Virus record (IMG/VR): IMGVR_UViG_3300031952_000013
Span: 20,861-84,860 of that record
Strand: one strand, 5' to 3'
Source: a virus
DNA length: 64,000 bases
Shown: in pieces, positions 3,627 through 64,000 of the stretch
How the letters are laid out: each line of letters begins with the position of its first letter
Position numbering within the stretch: the stretch's first letter is position 1
Made by a program: the position numbers and the translations under genes
Notes under the pieces: generated by a model
The model's database searches: none
Told to the model about the DNA's origin: nothing
Seen by the model: only the letters and a program-made list of their open reading frames with translations

Positions 3627-3798
3627 GGTAGGTTAGGTTATAAGTTCCGGTCTGTAGGGGGGTTGGATAGGTAGGGTTGGTCAGGTAGGTTAGGTTATAA
3701 GTGTGGGTCTGTGGGTGGGTTGGTAGGATGGGTAGGGGTAGGTTGGTTTGGTTGGGTTGGTAGGTTAGGTTATAGGTTCCGGTCTGGGAGGGGGATGG
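3627..3798. repeat. Three diverged G-rich direct repeats
   Basis: A unit of about 40 bp with core GGTAGGTTAGGTTATAAG or TATAGG, then a TCCGGTCTG or TGGGTCTG block and a G-run, occurs at 3627, 3684 and 3759. Spacings are 57 and 75 bp. Shorter GGTTAGGTT copies lie on both sides (3561-3571, 3851-3860). GG tracts are dense enough for two-tier G-quadruplexes on the + strand. Confidence 0.75.
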
Positions 3799-4143
3799 TA
3801 GGACGGGCAGGGCAGGTTGGTTAAGGTTAGGATGGAATAGGATGGGCTGGTTGGTTAGGTTGGCGGGCTTGAGGTGTGATAGTTTTATTTTTAGTTGGAA
3901 TTCTATTTTGGTTGGGTCGGTTTGTTCGTGGGCCTAGGACGGGATTGGTCTAGGGGAAATTGGCTAGGTTGGAACCGGAAAGACGCTTGCGATAGGGTAG
4001 GGGAGGGGGCGGCTATGTAAAGTTAGTTTACTTAGTTGACATAATATAGAATAAGATGTTTTGGTATAGTTTTGTGCCAAAGTAGAATATAGGTAGAATA
4101 TATTAAAATATAGGCATAGAATATTTTGTTTGGCATAAAAATA

Positions 4144-4819: not shown

Positions 4820-4856
4820 TTCTTTTATCTCTATATACTACTATTTATATAGGATA

Positions 4857-4964
4857 TATAGAATAGATATACTCTATAGAATACATATACACTATAGAAT
4901 TGATAGAGTATATAGGATTTATAAAATATATAGACTATATACGATGTATAGAGTGAATAAAACC
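4857..4964. repeat. AT-rich array of six 18-bp direct repeats (iteron-like)
   Basis: TATAGAAT or a one-to-two-base variant recurs exactly every 18 bp at 4857, 4875, 4893, 4911, 4929 and 4947. A weaker half-period of 9 bp is visible (GATATACTC, CATATACAC, GATAGAGTA). Extra copies of TATAGAAT lie at 4045 and 4781. One frame reads through as a hexapeptide repeat (YRIDIL, YRIHIH, YRIDRV), but it has no ribosome binding site. Phased AT-rich direct repeats beside dyads in a non-coding gap suggest a replication-initiator binding site. Confidence 0.75.
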
Positions 4965-50677: not shown

Positions 50678-51088
50678 ATGGGCAGTTTTTCCGACTATTT
50701 GGAACTTGAACTTCTTGACCATGTATTTAAGGTTGGGGCTTATACTCAACCTACCAAATTGTGTATTGCCCTGTGTAAGTCGACTATTGCAGAAGACGAC
50801 ACTGGTTCGACGCTTCCTACTGAAGTTGCTAATGCCGGTGCTTACGCAAGGAAGCAGTGCAATACGTGGCAAACGGCAGCGGCTGGTGCTACCCAGAACA
50901 ATATTGCCATTACTTTTGTTGAAGCAACAACTAATTGGGGTACTGTTACTGATTTCGCTATCGTTGACAGTGCCACGTATGCTCAGGGTAACATGATTGC
51001 TTATGGTAAATTGACCACGTTCAAGAAGATTGGTACAGGAGACACGGCTAAGTTTGCTACCGGTGACATTGACGTTACTTTGACCTAA
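50678..51088 (+). CDS. Tail protein of a widespread beta family (136 aa)
   Basis: SDYLELELLDHVFKVGAYTQ, LCIALCKSTIAEDDTGST, YARKQCNTWQTAAAGAT, ATTNWGTVTDFAIVD and GNMIAYGKL..FKKIGTGD are the hallmark segments. I know this family from many siphovirus tail genes ('LLDHVFG...Y..P...YvaL.t....'). Two more copies of the domain occur here: the Tat-signal gene at 17.4 kb and the C terminus of the 52.6-kb tail spike. It is probably a fibre or baseplate-tip component. Confidence 0.7.
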   Translation: MGSFSDYLELELLDHVFKVGAYTQPTKLCIALCKSTIAEDDTGSTLPTEVANAGAYARKQCNTWQTAAAGATQNNIAITFVEATTNWGTVTDFAIVDSATYAQGNMIAYGKLTTFKKIGTGDTAKFATGDIDVTLT

Positions 51089-51110: not shown

Positions 51111-52295
51111 GTGTCTGATAAGCCTATTGGATTGCACGTAGCTATACTGAACAAGGGTTGGCTTAGGAGGGAGATGTATGCTATTCTTGATAGGATGAAG
51201 AATACGGCGGGGGTTCAAGTAACTCTTGAACCCCTTAACCGTTGTTGGCATAATCCTATTTTTGCTAACAGAAATATTCTTTCTAAGAGATTTCTGGATA
51301 CGGATTGTGATTTCACTCTTCAGATTGATGATGATATTATTCCGATAAACCATAATCCGGCTGAAATGGTATTTGCTAATAAAGATGTTGTAGGTTTTCC
51401 TGCTAAAGTTCGGCAATACGGTAGGTCTATTAACTGGGTTGCCTTCGTCAAGCATCCAACAGAGGAAGGTTACGCTCCCGTGGATTTTTCTTCCGTTGAT
51501 GATACAGTGGACTTGCTAAAGGTAGATGTTGTAGGAACGGGTATGATTATGGTAAAGAGGAATGTCATGGAGACTCTGTGGAAGAAGGGAGGCGGTCCGT
51601 TTACTCTCGAATTGGACAAGTTTGGGGTTCCTGATTTTGGGACTGATTTTGCTTTTTGTCGCAGGGTTAAGGCGGCTGGTTTTGAGGTTTTCACAACCCC
51701 TCAAAGGCTCTGTGAACATTTTAAAGAGTTCGGTTTACTTGATATTCAGGGGTATGACGAGAGTGACAGCCGAGACCCCGCATCCCATAAGTATGCAATT
51801 CCTTGGGGGGAGTGGGCTATTTCTCAGAAGGATTGGGAATTCTTGCGGAATATCGTTCAGCGGGAAGGAGTTAAGAAAATCTTAGAGTTTGGTTCTGGTC
51901 TTTCGTCTCTCCTTTTATCTGAATTCGCTGAGGTTGTGAGTTATGAGACTGACGCTGAGTGGCTGAAACTTATAGAGGAGAAGAAAATTCCTGGTTACAA
52001 TAATCTTACTTTGAGAAAATGGTCAGGGGTAGATGAGCCGGAAGAACTTTTGTATGGAAAGTATGATATGGTATTTGTTGATGGGCCTCCTGGTAAAGTA
52101 ACCGGGGGTCCTGGCAGAGATATTTCAATTCGTCTGGCGACTAAACTATCTGATAGAGTTGTAGTCCACGATGGTCAAAGGGCTGAAGAACTTGGATTAC
52201 AGCTAAAGTATTTGCGTGGAGAGGCATTTAAGCTGGTTTCTAGAAGTGGTTATTATAGTTCCTGCTGTCACCATTGGCTGAAACGAGTGGAGTGA
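51111..52295 (+). CDS. Glycosyltransferase-methyltransferase fusion (394 aa, GTG start)
   Basis: Residues 1-215 look like a GT-A glycosyltransferase. DFTLQIDDDIIPINHNPAEM has a DxD-type motif, VDVVGTGMIMVKRNVMETLW follows, and DFGTDFAFCRRVKAAGFEVF carries the (E/D)D acceptor motif. Residues 245-394 look like a class I methyltransferase: KKILEFGSGLSSLLLSEFAE, VVSYETDAEWL, YDMVFVDGPPG, VVVHDGQRAEEL. The fusion sits among adhesin genes, so it may decorate tail fibres or a host glycan. Both activities are inferred from motifs. Confidence 0.7.
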   Translation: MSDKPIGLHVAILNKGWLRREMYAILDRMKNTAGVQVTLEPLNRCWHNPIFANRNILSKRFLDTDCDFTLQIDDDIIPINHNPAEMVFANKDVVGFPAKVRQYGRSINWVAFVKHPTEEGYAPVDFSSVDDTVDLLKVDVVGTGMIMVKRNVMETLWKKGGGPFTLELDKFGVPDFGTDFAFCRRVKAAGFEVFTTPQRLCEHFKEFGLLDIQGYDESDSRDPASHKYAIPWGEWAISQKDWEFLRNIVQREGVKKILEFGSGLSSLLLSEFAEVVSYETDAEWLKLIEEKKIPGYNNLTLRKWSGVDEPEELLYGKYDMVFVDGPPGKVTGGPGRDISIRLATKLSDRVVVHDGQRAEELGLQLKYLRGEAFKLVSRSGYYSSCCHHWLKRVE

Positions 52296-52556: not shown

Positions 52557-54491
52557 ATGGCTACTCCATATTACGTCTCGCAAGTAGACGGGAACGATAG
52601 TTATAATGGGTTGTACCCTACCTTTATAAGTGGTTCTGACGGTCCTTGGCTGACTATCTCTAAGGCCGACAACCTATCTGGGAGCCAGTCTGATAACTCT
52701 GTTCTTTTCAATCGTGGAGGAACCTGGAGAGAACAGTATGCCTTGGAGTGCTATGGTATATCGGGTCATCCATTCACGGTTGGAGCCTATGGAACGGGGA
52801 ATAAACCAAAGATTTATGGGTCTGACCAACTTACCGGATGGACAGTTTATAGCGGCAATATTTGGCAAGCCACAACGAGTATTAACCCCAACAAATCAAT
52901 CTATTTTGTAAACACAGACGGATCAGTTAAATGGGGGACCAAACAGGCCAATGCCGATGCCTGTGATGCGGAGTATGAGTTTTTTTCCAACGGCACAACG
53001 ATGTACTGCTATGCATTAACCGACCCAGACAGCAGATACACAAGCGTAGAAGTACCAACCAGGGCATATTGCATTGGTGCGACCGGACAATCTTACATCA
53101 CTATTGATGGTCTCGACATAAGACATTTTACTGATAATGGAATTAGGATTTATACCGACGCTGTCTATAATACGGTCCAAAATTGCCAGATATCTTATGG
53201 CGGAGAAAGTGTTTCCGGGGCGGGACAGGGTATTATAATCAGAGGAAGTTATCATCAGATAATCGGCAACACAATCCACGATTGTAGCATTCACGGCATA
53301 AGAACCTCGACAGCTAGTGGTAAGACCACATCGAACATAACCATTTCCGAGAATGAAGTTTATGACTGTTATCATAGCCTAATCGACTTGTCCAACGGTA
53401 ATGCTACTGGAGTAAGTACCGATCATACGGTCACCAGGAACTTCCTATATACCACGTCGAATTATGCTTATCCATCAACGCTTGATTGTAACGGAATCTA
53501 TGTGGCAGGTGCTAGTGCTGACCAACAAAATATTGAAATTTCCTACAATGTCATAATCAATATCTTTGCTGCCGCCATTCAGATTCAAAACAATGTTGTA
53601 AATTGCAACATCTATAACAACACTTGTTACGGAACTAATCCGGTTAATAATTGGAGTTGGACTTCCGGAATTTCCATAGGCGGAAGCGGCTCAAGCGGAA
53701 TAGCGGTGAAAAATAATATCGCAGCTAATTTTTATAGTGGGGCAGGAGGAGGGGATTCTTGCTTCGGTTGCTCGAATTCTGCGTTTATGAGTAGCGTGGA
53801 CAATAATTGCTGGTATCAAGCCACAGGGGGAAGGATATTTGCTCATATCAATACTACTAACTATTATTCCGGTGATTTTGTCGCCTATAAAGCTGCTACG
53901 GGATGGGATACTCATGGGAAATGGGAAGACCCAAAGTTTGTAAACGCTGGTGGGAGTAACCCCGAGGACTATAAATTGACAGCTACTTCCCCTTGTATCA
54001 ACGCCGGAGTAGATGTTGGTTTGACACAGGATTATGAGGGGAATGCTGTTATTGGATTTCCTGATATCGGGGCGCAGGAATACGGGTTGGGGGTTGCTTC
54101 AGATTATCTGGAGAACAAACTTCTTGACCATGTTTTTAAGGTTGCTTCTTTTTCTGTTCCTACTAATTTATACATAGCTTTGTGTAAAGCTACGGTTGAA
54201 GATGACGACACAGGAAGTACATTACCGAGTGAGGTTTCTGGTGGGTCTTATGCTAGGAAACGTTGTAATACTTGGACTGCGGCTTCTGTTGGTGGGACTT
54301 TATCAAATAATATGGCTATTCAGTTTGTAGAGGCCTCAGCTACTTGGGGTACTGTAACTGATTTTGCTGTAGTGGATAGTGGTTCTGGTGGAAATATGTT
54401 GGTTTATGGTAAGTTGTCTTACGCTAAACGGGTTTTGTCTGGAGATATTTTTAAGTTTGCGACAAATGATTTGGATGTGGCAGTGAATTAG
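52557..54491 (+). CDS. Right-handed beta-helix tail spike with conserved C-terminal domain (644 aa)
   Basis: The N terminus (YYVSQVDGNDSYNGLYPTFI) leads into turns of parallel beta-helix with repeated N/G/I steps (ISYGGESVSGAGQGIIIRGS, HQIIGNTIHDCSIHGIRTST, then NITISENEVYDCYHSLIDLS). Residues about 510-644 repeat the tail-protein domain of the 50.7-kb gene (LLDHVFKVASFSVPTNLYIA, WGTVTDFAVVD). Codon use changes sharply near 54,080, from C-rich to the phage's G/T-rich style. The helix therefore looks grafted onto the resident C-terminal domain. It probably binds or cleaves a host surface glycan. Confidence 0.75.
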   Translation: MATPYYVSQVDGNDSYNGLYPTFISGSDGPWLTISKADNLSGSQSDNSVLFNRGGTWREQYALECYGISGHPFTVGAYGTGNKPKIYGSDQLTGWTVYSGNIWQATTSINPNKSIYFVNTDGSVKWGTKQANADACDAEYEFFSNGTTMYCYALTDPDSRYTSVEVPTRAYCIGATGQSYITIDGLDIRHFTDNGIRIYTDAVYNTVQNCQISYGGESVSGAGQGIIIRGSYHQIIGNTIHDCSIHGIRTSTASGKTTSNITISENEVYDCYHSLIDLSNGNATGVSTDHTVTRNFLYTTSNYAYPSTLDCNGIYVAGASADQQNIEISYNVIINIFAAAIQIQNNVVNCNIYNNTCYGTNPVNNWSWTSGISIGGSGSSGIAVKNNIAANFYSGAGGGDSCFGCSNSAFMSSVDNNCWYQATGGRIFAHINTTNYYSGDFVAYKAATGWDTHGKWEDPKFVNAGGSNPEDYKLTATSPCINAGVDVGLTQDYEGNAVIGFPDIGAQEYGLGVASDYLENKLLDHVFKVASFSVPTNLYIALCKATVEDDDTGSTLPSEVSGGSYARKRCNTWTAASVGGTLSNNMAIQFVEASATWGTVTDFAVVDSGSGGNMLVYGKLSYAKRVLSGDIFKFATNDLDVAVN

Positions 54492-54503: not shown

Positions 54504-57500
54504 TTGGCCCACACTTATGATACCAAAGTCCAGTTCCTGACGGGGGCAACTGACCCGAGGGAATTCGCCTACACTTGCGGGTCGGGGACGACGCTCCTCA
54601 CCTTACTCATCGTTGCGTCAGGGCTTACGCAACGGACCGGCGGTGCGCCGACTTATAATAATGTCGCCTTCACGCTCGGTGATAAGCAAATAGCCACAAC
54701 TGAGACGAATGTCGAATTCTGGTATATGGTCGGCCCGCCAACTGGGTCATCTCTTACGATACAGATTCAGAATGATAACACCAGGACAATCTTCGGATGT
54801 GCAGCTTCGTTTAAAGCTGCTACTGGTAAAATCTCGGCATTGAGGACTTGTTCAAAAACAACAGGATCAACTGCCAATCCTGGTGGTCCAACAATGACGG
54901 GATTGAAGGCGGGTGATGTTATAGTTTCTATCCTTGGTACTGGTGATAATACTTTTGCTCCTACGGCATTTTCTGGAACTGACGTCTTATACACATATGA
55001 TCCTGCAGCTTATGGAATGGGGTCACAATATTTTTTTGTTCCTAGTACAGCAGATAAATCGCTGACATGGACTGAGGTAACAGCAGCTGATTGGGCAACA
55101 GTGTGTGCGTCGTTCATGGAGAGGGTACCATTGGTTGGTACGGTGGGGGCATCTTCTAATGTTCCGAATACTCCTTACGTTCATAGAACTAGGAAGGCCG
55201 CTGGTATTTCTGGGGCATCTTCTAATGTTCCGAATACTCCTTACATTCATAGAATTAGGAAGTTTGCTGGTATCGTTGGAAGTGAGGAAGTAGAAGACGG
55301 CGGACTTGAGAGTTGGGACGATGCTTTTACTCCGTCCTACTGGAATACGTGGATTGGCGGCGGTACTACTACCATCAATAAAGAGACGAGCAGCCAGCAT
55401 AGCGGTTCTGCTTGCCTCAGATTCGATGTTGATGCGAGCAATAACGCTGCGACCGTCAGCAAGCATCCTGATTACCACACCCAACCAATAACGGCGGGTT
55501 GCTTATATAGGTTGTCTTTCTGGTACAAAACGACGAACGGTGGGGCATGTTGTTTCTTCTTCTATGCTACAGTGCCGTCAACATTTGGCTTGAAGTCAGA
55601 TGGAACGTTCGCTTCCGGTTATCAGGAGATTTACCTAGCTCCTGCCGCTTCATGGACTCAGTTCAGCATTAACTTCGTGGCTCCTGTAGGATACACAGAT
55701 TACAATCTGTTTTTGTTTGGGGGGGGTTATGAGCCAGCCCCGTCAAGTTCGATTTTCTACGATGATGCTTCGTTAACTAGTATTGCTGGTGTCCAGGCGG
55801 TATCTTCAAGTTCTGCTGTATTCAGGAAGGTTAGACCTCTTGCCGGTATTTCTGGGGCATCTTCTAGTGTTCCTAATATTTCTTATATTCGTAGGATTAG
55901 GCATGTTACGGCTCCTGTGATAGCTTCAGTTAGTGCGGCTACTGGTAGTATTACTAAGTCTATAGCTCCTAAATTATTGGTTGGTACTTCTGCTGCTCAG
56001 GCTGCGATAGAGGGTATAGTTGAGCGAGTAAGAAGGCTTTTAGGTATTACCCAGGTGGCTTCTGGCGCACTTGGGATTTTGAAGGAAACTAGAGAGGTTG
56101 TTGGTTCCTTCGCTGCTACTTCTTCAGTAAGTGGCACAACGAAAAGCACCAAAAAACTTGCTGGTACTTCGGTTGCTCTTTCTTCTACTTCTGGAGTTCT
56201 TAGTAGAGCAAAGAAACTTATTGGTTCTTTGGCTGTTGTTTCTTCTACTTCTGGAGTTTTGAAAAAGGTTGGGAAGTTTGCTGGTATATCTGACGCGAAT
56301 TTTTCTGCTTCTGGAATTTCTAAAATAAGCAGAGAGTTTGTTGGTACTTCGGCTGCCGTTTCTTCTGCCTCTGGGGTTTTAAAAGAGGTTAATAAACTTA
56401 TTGGTACTTCGGCTGCTCTTTCTTCTGTTTCTGGAGTTTTGAAAAAGACTAGGAAGTTTGTTGGAACTTCGGCTGCTCTTTCTTCTGTTTCTGGAGTTCT
56501 AAAAAGACAAAGAAGAATTATTGGAACTTCGGTTGTTATCTCGTCTGTTTCTGGTGGGTTAACTACTGGGGGTTCCGCCTCACTTTATGGGGATATATCT
56601 GCGGTTTCGTCTGTATCTGGAATTTCAAAGGTTCGTAAAGAGTTTATTGGGACTTCGGCTGCAGTTGCTTCTTTGTCTGGAATTTTAGAAAGAGTAAGAG
56701 AACTTGTCGGTACTTCAACTGCGGTTTCCTCTACTTCTGGAATCCTGAAGAAGAGAAGGAAGCTCGTCGGTACTTCAACTGCGGTAGCTTCTGTTTCTGG
56801 AATCTTAAAGAGAAGAAGAGAACTTATTGGTACTTCGGCTGCTATCTCGTCTACGACAGGTGTTTTAACAACACAAGGTCAGGTTTCTCTGTATGGGACA
56901 GTTAGTATTGTCTCGTCTGTAACAGCTGTTGCTAAGGTTAAGAAGGAGTTTGCTGGTGTTGTTGCTGGTGTGAGTTCTGTCCCTGCTGTTCCTTATACCC
57001 ATAGAACCAGAGAGGTCTCTTCTATTATTGCTTCTCAGTCGAGTGTATCTGGAAAGGTTAGTCCTAGACGAAAACTTATTGGGTCTGCGGTATCTGTCTC
57101 ATCTACTTCTGGAATTATGAAGGTGGCTAAACCCCTGAAGGGGGTTGTTGGTGGAGTGTCAGTTGTGTCTGGGTATGCTAAAACTAGAAGGGAGTTGGTT
57201 GGGTCTGTAAGTTCTACATCTTCTGTGTTTGGGGTTCTACATCCAAGGAAGAAACTGGTAGGAGCTATTGGTTCTGTATCTGCGGTCACCGGAAGTTTGA
57301 GAAAGTTCTTTTACTTCTCTGGTTTGGTATCATCAGGTTCATCCACTATTGGTATTTTAAAAAGAGCAAGACGGATTCTTGGAGTGGTGGATGGTGTTTC
57401 TAGTCTTGATGCTTATTTGGTTACTGGACAGGAGGCAAGAATACGGGGAAAGATTGATGCAACCTCCTCTGTATCTGGTAGTTGGAATGTTGATTATCGT

Positions 57501-57800
57501 TTATTTGGAGTCTCTACACCGTCGAGTTCAGTTGTAGGGGCGACTAAACTATTGATAGAGGTTTCTGGTGTTGTTACAGCTTCTTCCTCTCTGGTTGCGC
57601 TACAGAGAGTTACGTATCCTCTTCATGGTTCTTTTGCTGTTGTTAGTTCTGTTAGTGGTATTCTTGAATGGGTATTCCGTGGTCTTATTAAGAGGTTTGT
57701 GCGTGATGTTCCCAGATTCTTTGAGCGTGATGTCAAGCGTATGCATGAATTGAATAAGGATAGAGAGAGGATATTCGACAGGTCGTCTGGAGATGAGTAG
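54504..57800 (+). CDS. Giant repeat adhesin with embedded carbohydrate-binding-like domain (1098 aa, TTG start)
   Basis: Residues 1-205 form a beta-rich domain common at phage fibre N termini. Two SNVPNTPY..HR.RK repeats follow. Residues about 262-428 resemble a CBM4/9-type jelly roll (HSGSACLRFDVDASNNAATV, LYRLSFWYKTTNG, IFYDDASL). Then roughly 28 repeats of 20 residues follow the rule (I/V)GTSAAxSSxSGVLKKxRKL. The end is a charged helix (FVRDVPRFFERDVKRMHELN). It is probably a long, flexible, positively charged fibre or tail appendage. The TTG follows GTGGGGGTAAATA. Confidence 0.7.
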   Translation: MAHTYDTKVQFLTGATDPREFAYTCGSGTTLLTLLIVASGLTQRTGGAPTYNNVAFTLGDKQIATTETNVEFWYMVGPPTGSSLTIQIQNDNTRTIFGCAASFKAATGKISALRTCSKTTGSTANPGGPTMTGLKAGDVIVSILGTGDNTFAPTAFSGTDVLYTYDPAAYGMGSQYFFVPSTADKSLTWTEVTAADWATVCASFMERVPLVGTVGASSNVPNTPYVHRTRKAAGISGASSNVPNTPYIHRIRKFAGIVGSEEVEDGGLESWDDAFTPSYWNTWIGGGTTTINKETSSQHSGSACLRFDVDASNNAATVSKHPDYHTQPITAGCLYRLSFWYKTTNGGACCFFFYATVPSTFGLKSDGTFASGYQEIYLAPAASWTQFSINFVAPVGYTDYNLFLFGGGYEPAPSSSIFYDDASLTSIAGVQAVSSSSAVFRKVRPLAGISGASSSVPNISYIRRIRHVTAPVIASVSAATGSITKSIAPKLLVGTSAAQAAIEGIVERVRRLLGITQVASGALGILKETREVVGSFAATSSVSGTTKSTKKLAGTSVALSSTSGVLSRAKKLIGSLAVVSSTSGVLKKVGKFAGISDANFSASGISKISREFVGTSAAVSSASGVLKEVNKLIGTSAALSSVSGVLKKTRKFVGTSAALSSVSGVLKRQRRIIGTSVVISSVSGGLTTGGSASLYGDISAVSSVSGISKVRKEFIGTSAAVASLSGILERVRELVGTSTAVSSTSGILKKRRKLVGTSTAVASVSGILKRRRELIGTSAAISSTTGVLTTQGQVSLYGTVSIVSSVTAVAKVKKEFAGVVAGVSSVPAVPYTHRTREVSSIIASQSSVSGKVSPRRKLIGSAVSVSSTSGIMKVAKPLKGVVGGVSVVSGYAKTRRELVGSVSSTSSVFGVLHPRKKLVGAIGSVSAVTGSLRKFFYFSGLVSSGSSTIGILKRARRILGVVDGVSSLDAYLVTGQEARIRGKIDATSSVSGSWNVDYRLFGVSTPSSSVVGATKLLIEVSGVVTASSSLVALQRVTYPLHGSFAVVSSVSGILEWVFRGLIKRFVRDVPRFFERDVKRMHELNKDRERIFDRSSGDE
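55131..57678. repeat. Tandem 60-bp repeats inside the adhesin gene
   Basis: A 60-bp unit containing words such as GGTACTTCGGCTGCT, TCTTCTGTTTCTGGAGTT and AAAAAG recurs in register for long runs. The copies at 56,401 and 56,461 are nearly identical, differing mostly in the last third. Others are diverged. A C-richer domain (55,285-55,788) interrupts the array. Copy number is likely to vary by slippage or recombination between isolates. Confidence 0.85.
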
Positions 57801-58090
57801 TGGTTAAGAAAGAGTTTTTAATAAACAAATTTTCTGGGGAAGAGTGGGGAGTAGGATTTAAATTTTTTCCCCCTGACCTGAATGTAGGTGAAACGATAAC
57901 AACTTGTGTAGCAACGGTTACTCCTTCGGGTTTGGAGATTCATGGAGACGCGATTATTGATAAGGATGACCGGACAGTTACTCAGGTGATTAGAGGAGGC
58001 ACTTCTGGTATCACCTACACGGTGACGTTTACGACAGAGATTTCTAACGGTTACGTTTTTATTGACCAAGTTCTCGTCCGAATAAAGTAA
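57800..58090 (+). CDS. Small Ig-like tail protein (96 aa, GTG start)
   Basis: The pattern EEWGVGFKFFPPDLNVGETI, CVATVTPSGLEIHGDAII, TQVIRGGTSGITYTVTFTTE and FIDQVLVRIK is known to me as a short beta-sandwich in phage tail regions. It often lies near fibre or adaptor genes. It probably helps connect the adhesin to the tail. It overlaps the adhesin stop by one base. Confidence 0.6.
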   Translation: MVKKEFLINKFSGEEWGVGFKFFPPDLNVGETITTCVATVTPSGLEIHGDAIIDKDDRTVTQVIRGGTSGITYTVTFTTEISNGYVFIDQVLVRIK

Positions 58091-58094
58091 CTTT

Positions 58095-61000
58095 ATGGCT
58101 ACGTCTAGCAGTTCGCATGTTGCTTTAGTTGTATTTAATACCAGTGGTGCTATTACTGGTCTGAATTATTTAAATTCAGCCTTGGGTCGTACTAGACAAA
58201 GGATGAGTGAGTTTGTAGCGCAGTCTGGTTATTTGGTTTTGGCTTTGACTCGTATTGCAACATACACAGGAATTTTTACCTTCTTTGGTCTTATGGCTAA
58301 GGCTATTAAAGACAATATTGAACTTGAAAGAAGGTTTGCTGAAGTTTCTACCCTGATTAATATGGCTAATGCCGAGCAGGCTAGGGGTTTTGAGGAGGTT
58401 AAACAACAGATTTTGGAATTGAATCCTGCATTGGGTTCTGCAATAGATTTGACTAAGGGTTTGTACGAAATTATGTCAGCTGGTATTAATGAGCCTCAAG
58501 AAGCCATGAAGATTCTTGTGCAGTCAGCCAAGTATGCTAAGGCTGGTTTGACTGATTTAGGTACGTCTGCGGCTACGTTGACTTCAATTATTAAAGCCTA
58601 CCGTCTATCGGCTGATAAGGCTAGAGAATCTTCTGACTATATGTTTGCATCGGTTATGGAAGGTAAATTCCACGCTGAGGATTTGAACGAGGCCTTGGGT
58701 AGAGTTCTTCCTACGGCTGCGGCCATGGGAGTAGGTATTGATGAGGTTGGCGCGGCATTGGCTGTCTTGAGCCAAAGAGGTCTAGACGCTAGTGAGGCTG
58801 CTACAGCGCTGAATAGGATGATGATTTCATTTTTGAAACCGCAGGAGAAATCGGCTAAGGTAATGCATAGTTTGGGGATAGAAACTGGTATAACCGCATT
58901 TCAATCGGGTGGTTTGTTGGGAGCTATGAGACAATTGACTACAGCTATGGCTTCTCATGCTGACCTTTTGCCGATAGTATTTACAAGGGAGAGAGGTCTT
59001 CGTGGTGCATTTATTATGACTGGTAGAGGGGCTGATGAATATGCGAGGATGTTAGAAAAGGTGAGAGCATCAGCTGAGGGAGAAGGTGAGACTGAGAGGG
59101 CTTATCAGAAGATTATTGCGACGACATCTGAAAGGTGGAAGGCTTTAGGCGCACATATTCAGCAGACTATGGCTCAGTCTCATCAGTCAATGACTGGTTT
59201 GAAAAGTCTTATCGGGGTATTAGATGTGGTTTCGACCACGCTGATTACACTTTCTCGTGGGATTGTTTGGGTGGGTTTGGGTTTTCTTGGATTGAAAATA
59301 TCTACTGCGTTGATAACCTCACTGCTGGCTGGGTTGTATAGAACATTAACTATTGTGTTTGCTCAGTTTGAGGCTGCCGGTGGTATGATGGGTAGGTTTG
59401 TTCCTGCACAAATTAACAAGCAAATGAATACGTTAAATCGGGTTATCCCACGGTGGGAAGCGTTAAAAGGGGTTATGTCGTCTGTATTTACTGGTTTGAT
59501 AATTGGTGCTATCGCTTATCAACTAGCTAAACTTGCTATAGAAGCGGTTAATAAAGCTCTTGATGCGGCTATTCAGAGGCAAATTGACTATGGGAATCAA
59601 TTAAGAGCGCGAACTGTAGAGTTAAAAAGGTTGTCCCAGGCGCATAAAGAGGCAACAGGAGAAATAGTCAATTATTCTAAAGAAGTTGAAAACATGGTTG
59701 TTGTATGGACTATGTGGGAGCTTGGTTTGATGGCAGATAAAGTTGATCGGTTGGTTTTTATTATGAATAAAATGGGAGGGGCGGTTAAGTATAGTTTTTC
59801 TGAATCAAGGAAATTTAGGGATGAAGTAGCAGAACTTCTTACAACGATGGAATTGGGTGAGCCGCTTACTCGAAGGCAGTATCAGATTTTACTCGACTTG
59901 GGTAGGGTTTTAGGTTATGATAGTAAGGCTTATAAAACTATTACAGAGTATTCAAAAAAGTACAGTCAGGAGACTGAATATCTCGCTACCCAACAGAGGA
60001 AACTTAATCAATTGTTTGTTCTTCTGGGTAATGCTATGCCTTATGAGTCAATGGACGCGATGGGATTGGCAACAGAGTTGTCTAAAGACGACCTTGTTAA
60101 ATATGGTGATGCAGTCAAGAGAGCGTTGGATACTATGAAAAAAGTGGGAACTACGGACTTTAATGACTTTGTGAAGTGGTTGGAGGCTAGTGGAGAAGAA
60201 ACAGGTGCGTTTAGAAAGAAGCTGGAGGAATTTGATAAGCAACTTACTGCGGCTCGAGGTTTAAAATACCAGGTTGATTTGATGCAGATGGCTAAAGAGG
60301 AAACGAACAGGTTGAGTGCGGCTATGGAAGAATTGTCATTGTCTGACCAGCAGGCGACGGCTAGGGCGAAGGGATTGGCTGATGCCTACGCGGAATACAG
60401 TAAAGTTCTTTCTGATAGCGTGATTGCTAATATCCCTGAGGTCAAGAAGGCTGTTGAAATCTTGATCGCTAACCTGGCCCGTGTTCCGACTGAGTATCAG
60501 GCTTTAATTCTTAAATTGAATGCTATTGCTGAAAAAGACAAGACGGCTGAGATTGCGGCTAAGAAAGCTGAGAACGCACGAGAGTGGGTTATGGATGCCT
60601 GGACTCGGCTGAGTGCTGACTTAGAGACGCTTCAGAATAAGATTAATCAAGACGAAACGAAAAATATAATTACGGATGCTAAAGAGAAAAACGCATTATT
60701 GAAGAAGGATTTGGCAGACAGGTTGGACACTCTTGGTGCTTATTATGCCTATTCAAAGGTTTATCTTGTTCTTAATGCTGTGTTTGCGGCGGCAATGGCT
60801 AAGAGGGAACAAGATGCTCGTACAGCGTCTCTTGCGGACACAATGAAAGAATACGCTGAAGCTCAACAGAAAATGATTCAATCCCATTACGATGGTACTA
60901 CTCAGCGGTTGGCTATTGCTAAGAGAGAGTATCTTGGGATGATGCAGTTTCTAATGGTTTTTGGTTATAAATTTTTCCCTGGAATGGTTGGCTATATGAT

Positions 61001-62849
61001 GACGTTGTGGGAAAAGTTGTGGGGTAATTTTAATGCAAATTTGGAGGATACCAGAACTCCAATGCAGAAGATGATAGAGCGGTTTCAAACTTTGGGTTCT
61101 ATGATTTCGGCTATAACTACCAATTTGCGTGATATGTTTGATACGTTTGGGATTGGAGAATCCAAGGTTCTAGATGTTTTGGATGCGGTTGCTAAGGGGT
61201 TTAATGCTATTGAGCAGTCGTTGAGAGCGGTTGAGGCGGCTGAGTCGGCTGCTGCTGAAGAAGGGGCTAATTTTATTGATAAACTTAATAGAGTAACAAG
61301 TGAAATAGGTTTGGCTATTGCTGTTATTACTACAATAATCAGTTTGTTTTCAAAATTATTTGCAGGAAAAACGGAAGCGGAGAAACTGGCTGATGCGATT
61401 AAGGATATAAAAGAAGAGATGGGATGGTTGGGTGAGATAACGGATGCGACGGCTGAAAAGATTGCGAAGCTCAGAGAGGCGATGGGGGAAGCTGCGGTTG
61501 AGGCTAGAACTCTTGCTGATATGATGAAGGATACTGGAATCAACACTAACAATTATGGGCAATACTTAAACAGAATGATTGATTCTCTTAATGAACTTGT
61601 GTCTGCTTGGAAATTGGCGCAAGATTTGGGGTTTGGTGAGTTTGATATTCAACAGGAACTTGAAGGTCTTGGTAAGGCTTTTGAGGAGATGATTGGTTAT
61701 CTTCAAAGGATAGGGAAAGAGGGGGACGCTGGTATTTTGATATTCATAAAGCGGTTGAGAGAACTTGGTATTACTATAAAAGAAGTAGATGATTATGTTT
61801 ATGGTTGGTTAGAGAGGGCGGCTAAGGGTCTTACTGATATGATTACTGCTGTGACGGGGGCTGGTCCTCAGTTGGAGATTGCTGGCAATCTACTGCTCTC
61901 TGTGTTTAATGCGGCTCTTGCTCAGGGGATGTCTTTGCTTGATGCTTTGAATCTGATAGCTGACCCGTTGGCAGCCCTGTCAGCAAAGTATACGGAACTG
62001 GGTTTGGCTGGTAGTGGAGCGATTGCAGAACTTCTTAAAATTCAGAAGGTTAAGGAAGCAAATGAAGGTTTGTTTGAGGCCATCTCTGGTTTGAATGAGG
62101 TTCTACAGGCTCTTGGAAATACAGGGTTCTTGACGGCTGAAGATTTTTCGGCTATGCAGAGTAGTGTGGGTGAATACTTCAAACAATTAACGGCAGCCGG
62201 ATTGACTTCAAAAGAAGCTCTGGCTGTTCTTGCTCCTATCTTGGCTAACCTTGAATATTATGCCAAGCAGTATGGGTTTGCTCTTGACCCCGCTACTCAG
62301 GCTCTTATTGACCAAGCCAAGGAAGCCGGAGTGTATAAAGAAAAAGCAAAGACTATGGCTGAAGTTCTGGAGGAAGGTTTTGGTAATATCTGCGACAGGT
62401 TAGACCAGATTGTGAAGTATTTTACTGGTGATAATGGTATTCTGGATAACATAGATAAATTTAAGAAGCGGGGGGCTTGGGATGAGTTCAATGAAGGGGC
62501 GAGGGATGCGATAGATAATCTTGATGAAGTTAATAGACGAATGCCAAAAGGTCCTGGGCGTTATGATGGAGGTAACGGGTCAGCGCAGTTTGGAATGACT
62601 AATGTTGGACAGACTCAACTTATTAAAGTTCATCGGGGTGAGTCGATTATTCCTGAAAATATTTCGTCGGTTCTCAGATCGTTCTTTGGAGGGATGTCTA
62701 CTCCTGCGGCTACAGGAGGCCAGGCTGATATGGCACAGGTAACGGTGGAAATAGATGGAATGGCAGTTTATAAGGCTCTAGTTCCTATTATGCGAAAGGG
62801 TATGGGTAAATACGGAGACGTAGAAATACAAGGTGGTGGGGTATTTTAA
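58095..62849 (+). CDS. Tail tape measure protein, TP901 type (1584 aa)
   Basis: The conserved TP901 core is near the N terminus: VSTLINMANAEQARGFEEVK, GLYEIMSAGINEPQEAMKIL, KYAKAGLTDLGTSAATLTSI, LPTAAAMGVGIDEVGAALAV and LSQRGLDASEAATALNRM. Long alpha-helical segments and hydrophobic stretches follow (IVWVGLGFLGLKISTALITS, then GLIIGAIAYQLAKLAIEA). The C terminus has HRGESIIPENISSVL. A protein of this length would set a tail of roughly 230 nm at the usual 1.5 Angstrom per residue. Confidence 0.92.
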   Translation: MATSSSSHVALVVFNTSGAITGLNYLNSALGRTRQRMSEFVAQSGYLVLALTRIATYTGIFTFFGLMAKAIKDNIELERRFAEVSTLINMANAEQARGFEEVKQQILELNPALGSAIDLTKGLYEIMSAGINEPQEAMKILVQSAKYAKAGLTDLGTSAATLTSIIKAYRLSADKARESSDYMFASVMEGKFHAEDLNEALGRVLPTAAAMGVGIDEVGAALAVLSQRGLDASEAATALNRMMISFLKPQEKSAKVMHSLGIETGITAFQSGGLLGAMRQLTTAMASHADLLPIVFTRERGLRGAFIMTGRGADEYARMLEKVRASAEGEGETERAYQKIIATTSERWKALGAHIQQTMAQSHQSMTGLKSLIGVLDVVSTTLITLSRGIVWVGLGFLGLKISTALITSLLAGLYRTLTIVFAQFEAAGGMMGRFVPAQINKQMNTLNRVIPRWEALKGVMSSVFTGLIIGAIAYQLAKLAIEAVNKALDAAIQRQIDYGNQLRARTVELKRLSQAHKEATGEIVNYSKEVENMVVVWTMWELGLMADKVDRLVFIMNKMGGAVKYSFSESRKFRDEVAELLTTMELGEPLTRRQYQILLDLGRVLGYDSKAYKTITEYSKKYSQETEYLATQQRKLNQLFVLLGNAMPYESMDAMGLATELSKDDLVKYGDAVKRALDTMKKVGTTDFNDFVKWLEASGEETGAFRKKLEEFDKQLTAARGLKYQVDLMQMAKEETNRLSAAMEELSLSDQQATARAKGLADAYAEYSKVLSDSVIANIPEVKKAVEILIANLARVPTEYQALILKLNAIAEKDKTAEIAAKKAENAREWVMDAWTRLSADLETLQNKINQDETKNIITDAKEKNALLKKDLADRLDTLGAYYAYSKVYLVLNAVFAAAMAKREQDARTASLADTMKEYAEAQQKMIQSHYDGTTQRLAIAKREYLGMMQFLMVFGYKFFPGMVGYMMTLWEKLWGNFNANLEDTRTPMQKMIERFQTLGSMISAITTNLRDMFDTFGIGESKVLDVLDAVAKGFNAIEQSLRAVEAAESAAAEEGANFIDKLNRVTSEIGLAIAVITTIISLFSKLFAGKTEAEKLADAIKDIKEEMGWLGEITDATAEKIAKLREAMGEAAVEARTLADMMKDTGINTNNYGQYLNRMIDSLNELVSAWKLAQDLGFGEFDIQQELEGLGKAFEEMIGYLQRIGKEGDAGILIFIKRLRELGITIKEVDDYVYGWLERAAKGLTDMITAVTGAGPQLEIAGNLLLSVFNAALAQGMSLLDALNLIADPLAALSAKYTELGLAGSGAIAELLKIQKVKEANEGLFEAISGLNEVLQALGNTGFLTAEDFSAMQSSVGEYFKQLTAAGLTSKEALAVLAPILANLEYYAKQYGFALDPATQALIDQAKEAGVYKEKAKTMAEVLEEGFGNICDRLDQIVKYFTGDNGILDNIDKFKKRGAWDEFNEGARDAIDNLDEVNRRMPKGPGRYDGGNGSAQFGMTNVGQTQLIKVHRGESIIPENISSVLRSFFGGMSTPAATGGQADMAQVTVEIDGMAVYKALVPIMRKGMGKYGDVEIQGGGVF

Positions 62850-63959: not shown

Positions 63960-64000
63960 GTGGCAGTAGTTGGTTTGTCTGGGACTTCTGCTGCGTCATT
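63960..64000 (+). CDS. 5' end of a further tail gene (partial)
   Basis: A GTG after AGGGAGAATTGA opens a frame reading (M)AVVGLSGTSAAS, which runs off the end of the window. The words GTSAAS recall the adhesin repeat, so this may be another member of that repeat family. Only 13 codons are visible. Confidence 0.4.
   Translation, partial: MAVVGLSGTSAAS

Follow-up and report, generated by a model that had tools for sequence, protein, structure and literature searches.

The window analysed here is a 64,000-nucleotide stretch of viral DNA corresponding to bases 20861-84860 of a virus record 84,860 bp long (IMGVR_UViG_3300031952_000013). The sequence of a second assembly of the same virus (IMGVR_UViG_3300031707_000011, 66,207 bp) continues across the end of this record to its beginning, indicating that the viral sequence is circular or terminally redundant. 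Whole-protein searches of IMG/VR with the repeat protein described below returned only this second assembly, as did queries with the tape measure and distal-tail-like proteins, and a portal query against GTDB genomes, made in search of a host, found no relative. In the tail region, the + strand encodes, in this order, a tail tube-like protein (48418), a free Gp80 protein, a protein starting at 51111 with a weak glycosyltransferase match, a β-helix protein ending in a Gp80 domain, the repeat protein, a Gp77-type adaptor and the tape measure. The free Gp80 bead protein (50678..51088, 136 aa) matches PF23140 with E = 7.7e-33, its best match in the PDB being gp80 of entry 8JOU (E = 0.0023). The β-helix protein (52557..54491) matches PF13229 (E = 2.9e-12) and, over its Gp80 part at about 54096-54479, PF23140 (E = 1.3e-36). 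Downstream of the repeat gene lie the genes for the Gp77-type fibre-tail adaptor (57800..58090, 96 aa; PF23148, E = 1.1e-10, score 42.4 bits with the cut-off at 27) and for the tail tape measure protein (58095..62849; PF10145, phrog_1533). The Pfam families Gp80 and Gp77 take their names from proteins of the Ralstonia podophage GP4, Gp80 from its fibre-I protein and Gp77 from its fibre-tail adaptor. The description of the repeat protein as fibre-like, made in a first-pass annotation, is thus supported by the position of its gene, which has a fibre-bead gene (Gp80) on one side and a fibre-adaptor gene (Gp77) on the other. In fibre I of GP4, five dimers of gp80 are reportedly held together by an elongated “rope” protein and sit on a 15-fold adaptor; we use the term rope below.

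The β-helix-Gp80 gene was found in two in-frame forms, one of 644 aa in the window (52557-54491) and one of 1525 aa in the sister assembly (L004:3411-7988), the longer form containing an extra β-helix region (+2643 bp). Since the rope gene and the 9.5 kb downstream of it are identical in both assemblies, the two length forms are due either to a payload that varies within the population or to collapse of the sequence during assembly.

The repeat protein is encoded by an open frame of 1098 residues on the + strand (54504..57800), with a TTG start codon and a G-rich stretch, GGGGG, 7 bases upstream. As a whole, it has no match in Pfam, PHROG or the PDB, and a tblastn search of 50,697 phage records, run with the low-complexity filter on, yielded no match. 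It begins with a domain of about 209 residues (54504..55130) which appears jelly-roll-like by eye, for which Pfam and PHROG searches gave no match and for which a single-sequence AlphaFold prediction of the N-terminal 430 residues was uninformative (pLDDT 32). Two repeat units of a 22-residue type follow (55131..55262; profile scan, and a 66-bp period with 91% match in TRF), and then a non-repeat module of about 170 residues (55263..55778) with a net charge of -11, which resembles a carbohydrate-binding module on visual reading of the sequence and for which no match was found in Pfam. The main array of 30 units, mostly of 20 residues, was delineated by iterative profile and TRF (55779..57680), and the protein ends in a basic tail (57681..57797) similar by eye to the R-rich C-termini of other ropes, possibly its anchor end. 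The N-terminal domain is probably a payload or adhesin module; a non-repeat N-terminal domain is seen by eye at the equivalent place in the metagenomic rope L064, and another metagenomic rope, L107 (842 aa), is about 400 residues longer than its relative L111. Together with the inserted module, the N-terminal domain looks like payload added to the rope.

The repeats had originally been described as about thirty 20-residue copies in one array. The number was close, as the iterative profile detects 32 units (0.055 expected in the shuffled protein), but these form two blocks split by the non-repeat module. Unit spacing is 20 residues in 24 intervals and 22 residues in 5, with longer gaps of 46 and 194 residues, the latter being the site of the module. 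The consensus of the units is approximately L-V-G-T-S-A-A-V-S-S-V-S-G-V-L-K-K-x-R-K, and the 60-bp periodicity of the DNA was recovered independently by TRF. A blind period scan of the protein returned 20 and 40 (score 0.97, against -0.34 +/- 0.04 for shuffles), and the 20-residue period (z = 15-20) is the strongest in the genome: in the genome-wide comparison the repeat gene scores z = 15 and the runner-up 2.8. What the sequence does not support is the near-identity of neighbouring units. The units at 56,397 and 56,457 are 78% identical in DNA over 60 bp and 75% identical in protein, and the longest exact stretch within the array, which these two units share (at 56,406 and 56,466), is 33 bp. 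Mean DNA identity over all pairs of units is 47%. Recent expansion, which had been deduced from this supposed near-identity, could apply to at most a few central units (about 56.2-56.8 kb) and not to the rest of the array. Comparison of these central units by codon position showed the smallest difference at the second position (0.13 versus 0.32 and 0.42).

We then compared the locus with GP4 and other phages encoding a Gp77 protein. Three gene features of a GP4-type module are present here, i.e. an adjacent Gp77 gene, Gp80 in the cluster and a periodic rope gene before Gp77. As in GP4 fibre I (8JOU; PF23140, PF23148), a gene for a long protein lies between Gp80 bead genes and a Gp77 adaptor gene; in relatives of GP4, the gene in the equivalent place has a period of 20-22 residues. 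The two systems differ in that the phage described here is long-tailed, as it bears a tape measure, whereas GP4 is a podophage; in that this rope has 32 units rather than about 10; in that payload modules are present inside the rope and Gp80 is also fused to a β-helix; and in that this genome contains stray unit copies in other tail genes. No PDB sequence matched the profile of this repeat or the ropes of JC1 or DC1, two close relatives of GP4, although the rope chain of 8JOU may lack a deposited sequence.

Alignment searches with Gp77 identified 152 loci, which after removal of redundancy left 109 genes located directly before Gp77. A significant short period was found in 89 of these 109 genes, and in 81 the period was about 20 or 22 residues or double that; no clear short period was detected at the remaining 20 loci. 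A 20/22-type period was found in only one of 102 genes located after Gp77 and in none of 96 second genes before it, making it hard to invoke chance for the link between this step and the fibre module. Among named phages, the gene between Gp80 and Gp77 has a period of 20 in POI1126 and PBC5, and of 22/20 in JC1; in Itty13 the 20-22-residue repeat shows only weakly. A gene with 20-22-residue repeats adjoins Gp80 in ctjtQ328, and one is located near Gp77 in CRP-603 (weakly) and in Mae-JY22 (22). On one metagenomic contig, L046, Gp80, a rope of 20-residue SSVSG-type units and Gp77 are all present, and its units and those of the virus described here can be aligned in phase (hhalign score 33.8, against a maximum of 21.9 when columns were permuted inside the unit). 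With L064, L059, L041, L038 and L046, scores for in-phase alignment ranged from 31.5 to 48.4, those of the permuted controls reaching at most 18-23. Rope length varies from about 100 to about 990 residues across the class, and residues vary greatly, while the 20/22 step is kept. Many unrelated phages have a rope with a step of 20 or 22 residues next to the Gp77 fibre-anchor gene. No description of this rule was found in the open-licence papers searched, although the GP4 paper might already mention a rope repeat; the step seems to be general and so far undescribed.

Neutral ropes of 20-residue GSSASVSSASG units were also seen in four IMG/VR contigs (L059, L036, L041 and L064), where they adjoin head genes of the portal or capsid region and where none of the neighbouring genes tested matched Gp77 or Gp80. 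In three of them (L059, L036 and L041) the rope is followed by a conserved gene of 107-108 residues with no Gp77 match, possibly a diverged adaptor family. Several DNA-pattern hits, L015, L018, L020 and L022 among them, were rejected as chance matches to Ser-rich sequence.

An additional comparison was provided by LSH1, a phage described in 2026 (PMC13243795). Its three-gene module (gp34-gp36) encodes a β-helix payload whose long C-terminal region is badly predicted, together with an Ig-like protein and a dimer resembling gp80. The authors of that study ask whether a repetitive motif underlies the bad prediction, the repeat itself not being identified by them (PMC13243795). In the LSH1 relative Slicko01, residues about 960-1760 of an 1843-residue protein show a 20-residue period in most 160-residue windows, with a best local period score of 1.36 against a shuffle maximum of -0.27 +/- 0.08, and this protein is the most 20-periodic of the 113 gene products. 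Since these data were not used to form the rope explanation, the explanation passed an out-of-sample prediction. LSH1 and Slicko01 share with the locus described here a β-helix payload, a long poorly predicted region (a 20-residue array in Slicko01), a gp80-like dimer and an Ig-like protein; they differ in that payload and rope are in one protein and in that the Slicko01 rope is acidic. The Slicko01 rope neighbours a 107-residue protein without a Pfam match above cut-off; the Gp80 match is weak (E = 0.0036, below cut-off), and the adaptor has no Gp77 match.

Variation in copy number had been suggested as a means of tuning length. This suggestion is supported for the class, in which relatives differ and rope lengths vary; in this virus, the array is base-identical in its two assemblies. 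A constant copy number across all relatives, the opposite outcome, is not what we found. L104 and L109, whose Gp77 proteins are 95% identical, differ by exactly one 20-residue unit at one place, and L095 and L097 (Gp77 96% identical) differ by about six units. In many other pairs of relatives, length differences are not multiples of 20, owing partly to the choice of start codon and to payload insertions. Unit gain and loss is therefore one process among several.

Taken together, we consider it likely that the repeat protein serves as the rope in a beaded fibre of the GP4 type and that its units dock Gp80 subunits. In this mechanism, the 20-residue units would be equivalent docking segments, most likely one per Gp80 subunit; the free bead and the β-helix-Gp80 adhesin would be strung along the rope; and the Gp77-type adaptor, whose gene adjoins that of the rope, would fix the bead chain to the virion. 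The stoichiometry is suggested by GP4 itself. About 9-11 units were counted, partly by reading of the sequences, in the ropes of close relatives of GP4, and the 8JOU structure contains ten gp80 chains, together with three adaptor chains, so that the simplest reading is one unit per Gp80. Unit number would then set bead number and so the reach of the fibre, and the rope described here, with its 32 units, would bear about 32 Gp80 subunits or about 16 dimers, three times the number in GP4, with the N-terminal and inserted modules as payload carried on the rope. We infer the contact between unit and bead, its one-to-one ratio, the orientation of the rope and its display at the virion surface from these comparisons. 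An AlphaFold prediction of six units as a single chain, with an alignment of eight rows in which the rows for the repeat units were taken from other phages, drew two 8-residue strands per unit at low confidence (pLDDT 51, pTM 0.36). The lack of a confident fold for the modelled monomer is as expected if the rope needs its partner, which is not proof that it does.

The same model bears on a different possibility, that the units fold by themselves into a fibre shaft, stacking as a β-solenoid or a trimeric β-spiral without bead proteins. The two predicted strands per unit are compatible with such a shaft, as is the β-helix of poor quality obtained by the LSH1 authors for the equivalent region (PMC13243795). 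However, no confident fold of the repeat region alone was obtained with the single-chain model, the array is tied to Gp77 and Gp80 genes, and composition that swings widely at a fixed step is more easily reconciled with an external ruler than with a conserved core; we regard a self-folding shaft as unlikely. Beads could also link to one another, as in the neck fibre of the Anabaena myophage A-1(L), in which about 16 beads are arranged on a 15-fold ring and gp81 trimers are modelled linking head-to-tail (PMC10966104). This is likewise a bead-chain fibre, but no rope with repeats has been described for it, and we set it aside as a model because its beads are modelled as linking themselves. The presence of a rope gene argues against self-linking of the A-1(L) type, which involves N-terminal hairpins and no rope.

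The first-pass annotation had also proposed that a strongly positive array wraps acidic surface glycans or membranes. The charge itself is real, since residues 431-1050, 620 residues in all, carry a net charge of +57 with K/R at fixed places. As a basic function, however, wrapping is highly improbable: the ropes of the 109 set, in the same gene position, have net charges of -99 to +26 and that of Slicko01 has -86 over 775 residues; equivalent ropes are neutral or acidic. The basic character is therefore a local flavour rather than a defining property, and what is conserved in ropes is the 20/22-residue step, not charge. Charge may nevertheless add host-specific binding in this rope. Nor do we give much credence to a flexible linker under little constraint in which DNA slippage has generated the repeats as a side effect, an explanation that would account for the exact gains and losses of units and for the weak conservation of sequence between phages. 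Phase and motif are common to unrelated phages, the period of 20 or 22 persists even where units are too diverged for recent duplication (POI1126, Slicko01), and the minimal difference at second codon positions in the central units is as under protein-level selection; slippage in a linker is scarcely tenable against these observations.

Copies of the repeat unit were also found in two other genes of the genome. A 62-residue ORF on the + strand, made up of about three repeat units, starts at 63960 and runs past the end of the window at 64000 (L004:17457-17645 in full). One gene separates it from the tape measure gene, and the gene for a 1470-residue tail protein lies on its other side. The 1470-residue tail protein holds two of the rope's units. 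These copies are either stray docking units or remnants; in the former case, by hypothesis, the same beads or adhesins could dock on both proteins.

In cellulosomes, a single scaffoldin with many equal docking sites recruits tagged modules through cohesin-dockerin pairs. The rope as proposed here would work alike, with no sequence relation; its docking unit would be a short peptide, and the recruited proteins would be tagged by a Gp80 domain. Tentatively, and with appreciable doubt, one may extend the docking mechanism to that of a phage scaffoldin, in which each 20-residue unit acts as a universal docking site for Gp80-tagged proteins of any kind, up to 32 interchangeable adhesins are carried per rope and the same peptide in the 62-residue ORF and the 1470-residue tail protein brings adhesins to the tail tip. 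If so, a phage could adjust host binding in two independent ways, through the number of repeats and through the payload that carries the tag. More generally, if one unit seats one Gp80, fibre length would be readable from sequence and unit gain or loss would be a measurable change of reach. The class-wide rule is testable and concerns a widespread but almost unannotated organelle: the gene before Gp77 would be the rope, and its length divided by 20 (or 22) would predict the number of beads. The rule may also explain why long regions next to phage adhesins, such as that of LSH1 (PMC13243795), are predicted poorly.

Several minor observations were made along the way. Just past the window end in the circular map (L005:177-6908; G000:C1), the 1470-residue tail protein ends in a long CxxC array, the next ORF (247 aa) consists almost entirely of Cys-rich repeats and the one after it encodes a 510-residue radical SAM enzyme (PF04055, E = 2.8e-13) with a Cys-rich N-terminus. 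This cluster may be a phage-encoded peptide-modifying system acting on the Cys-rich tail protein; a literature search on such a system returned nothing on point. In Burkholderia phage DC1, the Gp80 bead gene (L242:1798-2217) is labelled “major capsid protein”, and “head protein” in the RefSeq copies of its relatives, which looks like mis-annotation. Finally, outside the long ORFs of the window, tandem repeats occur at 3684-3822 and 4846-4952, comprising a 75-bp unit rich in G and a 9/36-bp array rich in AT (TATATAGAA). Repeats of this sort occur at origins of replication or serve in regulation.
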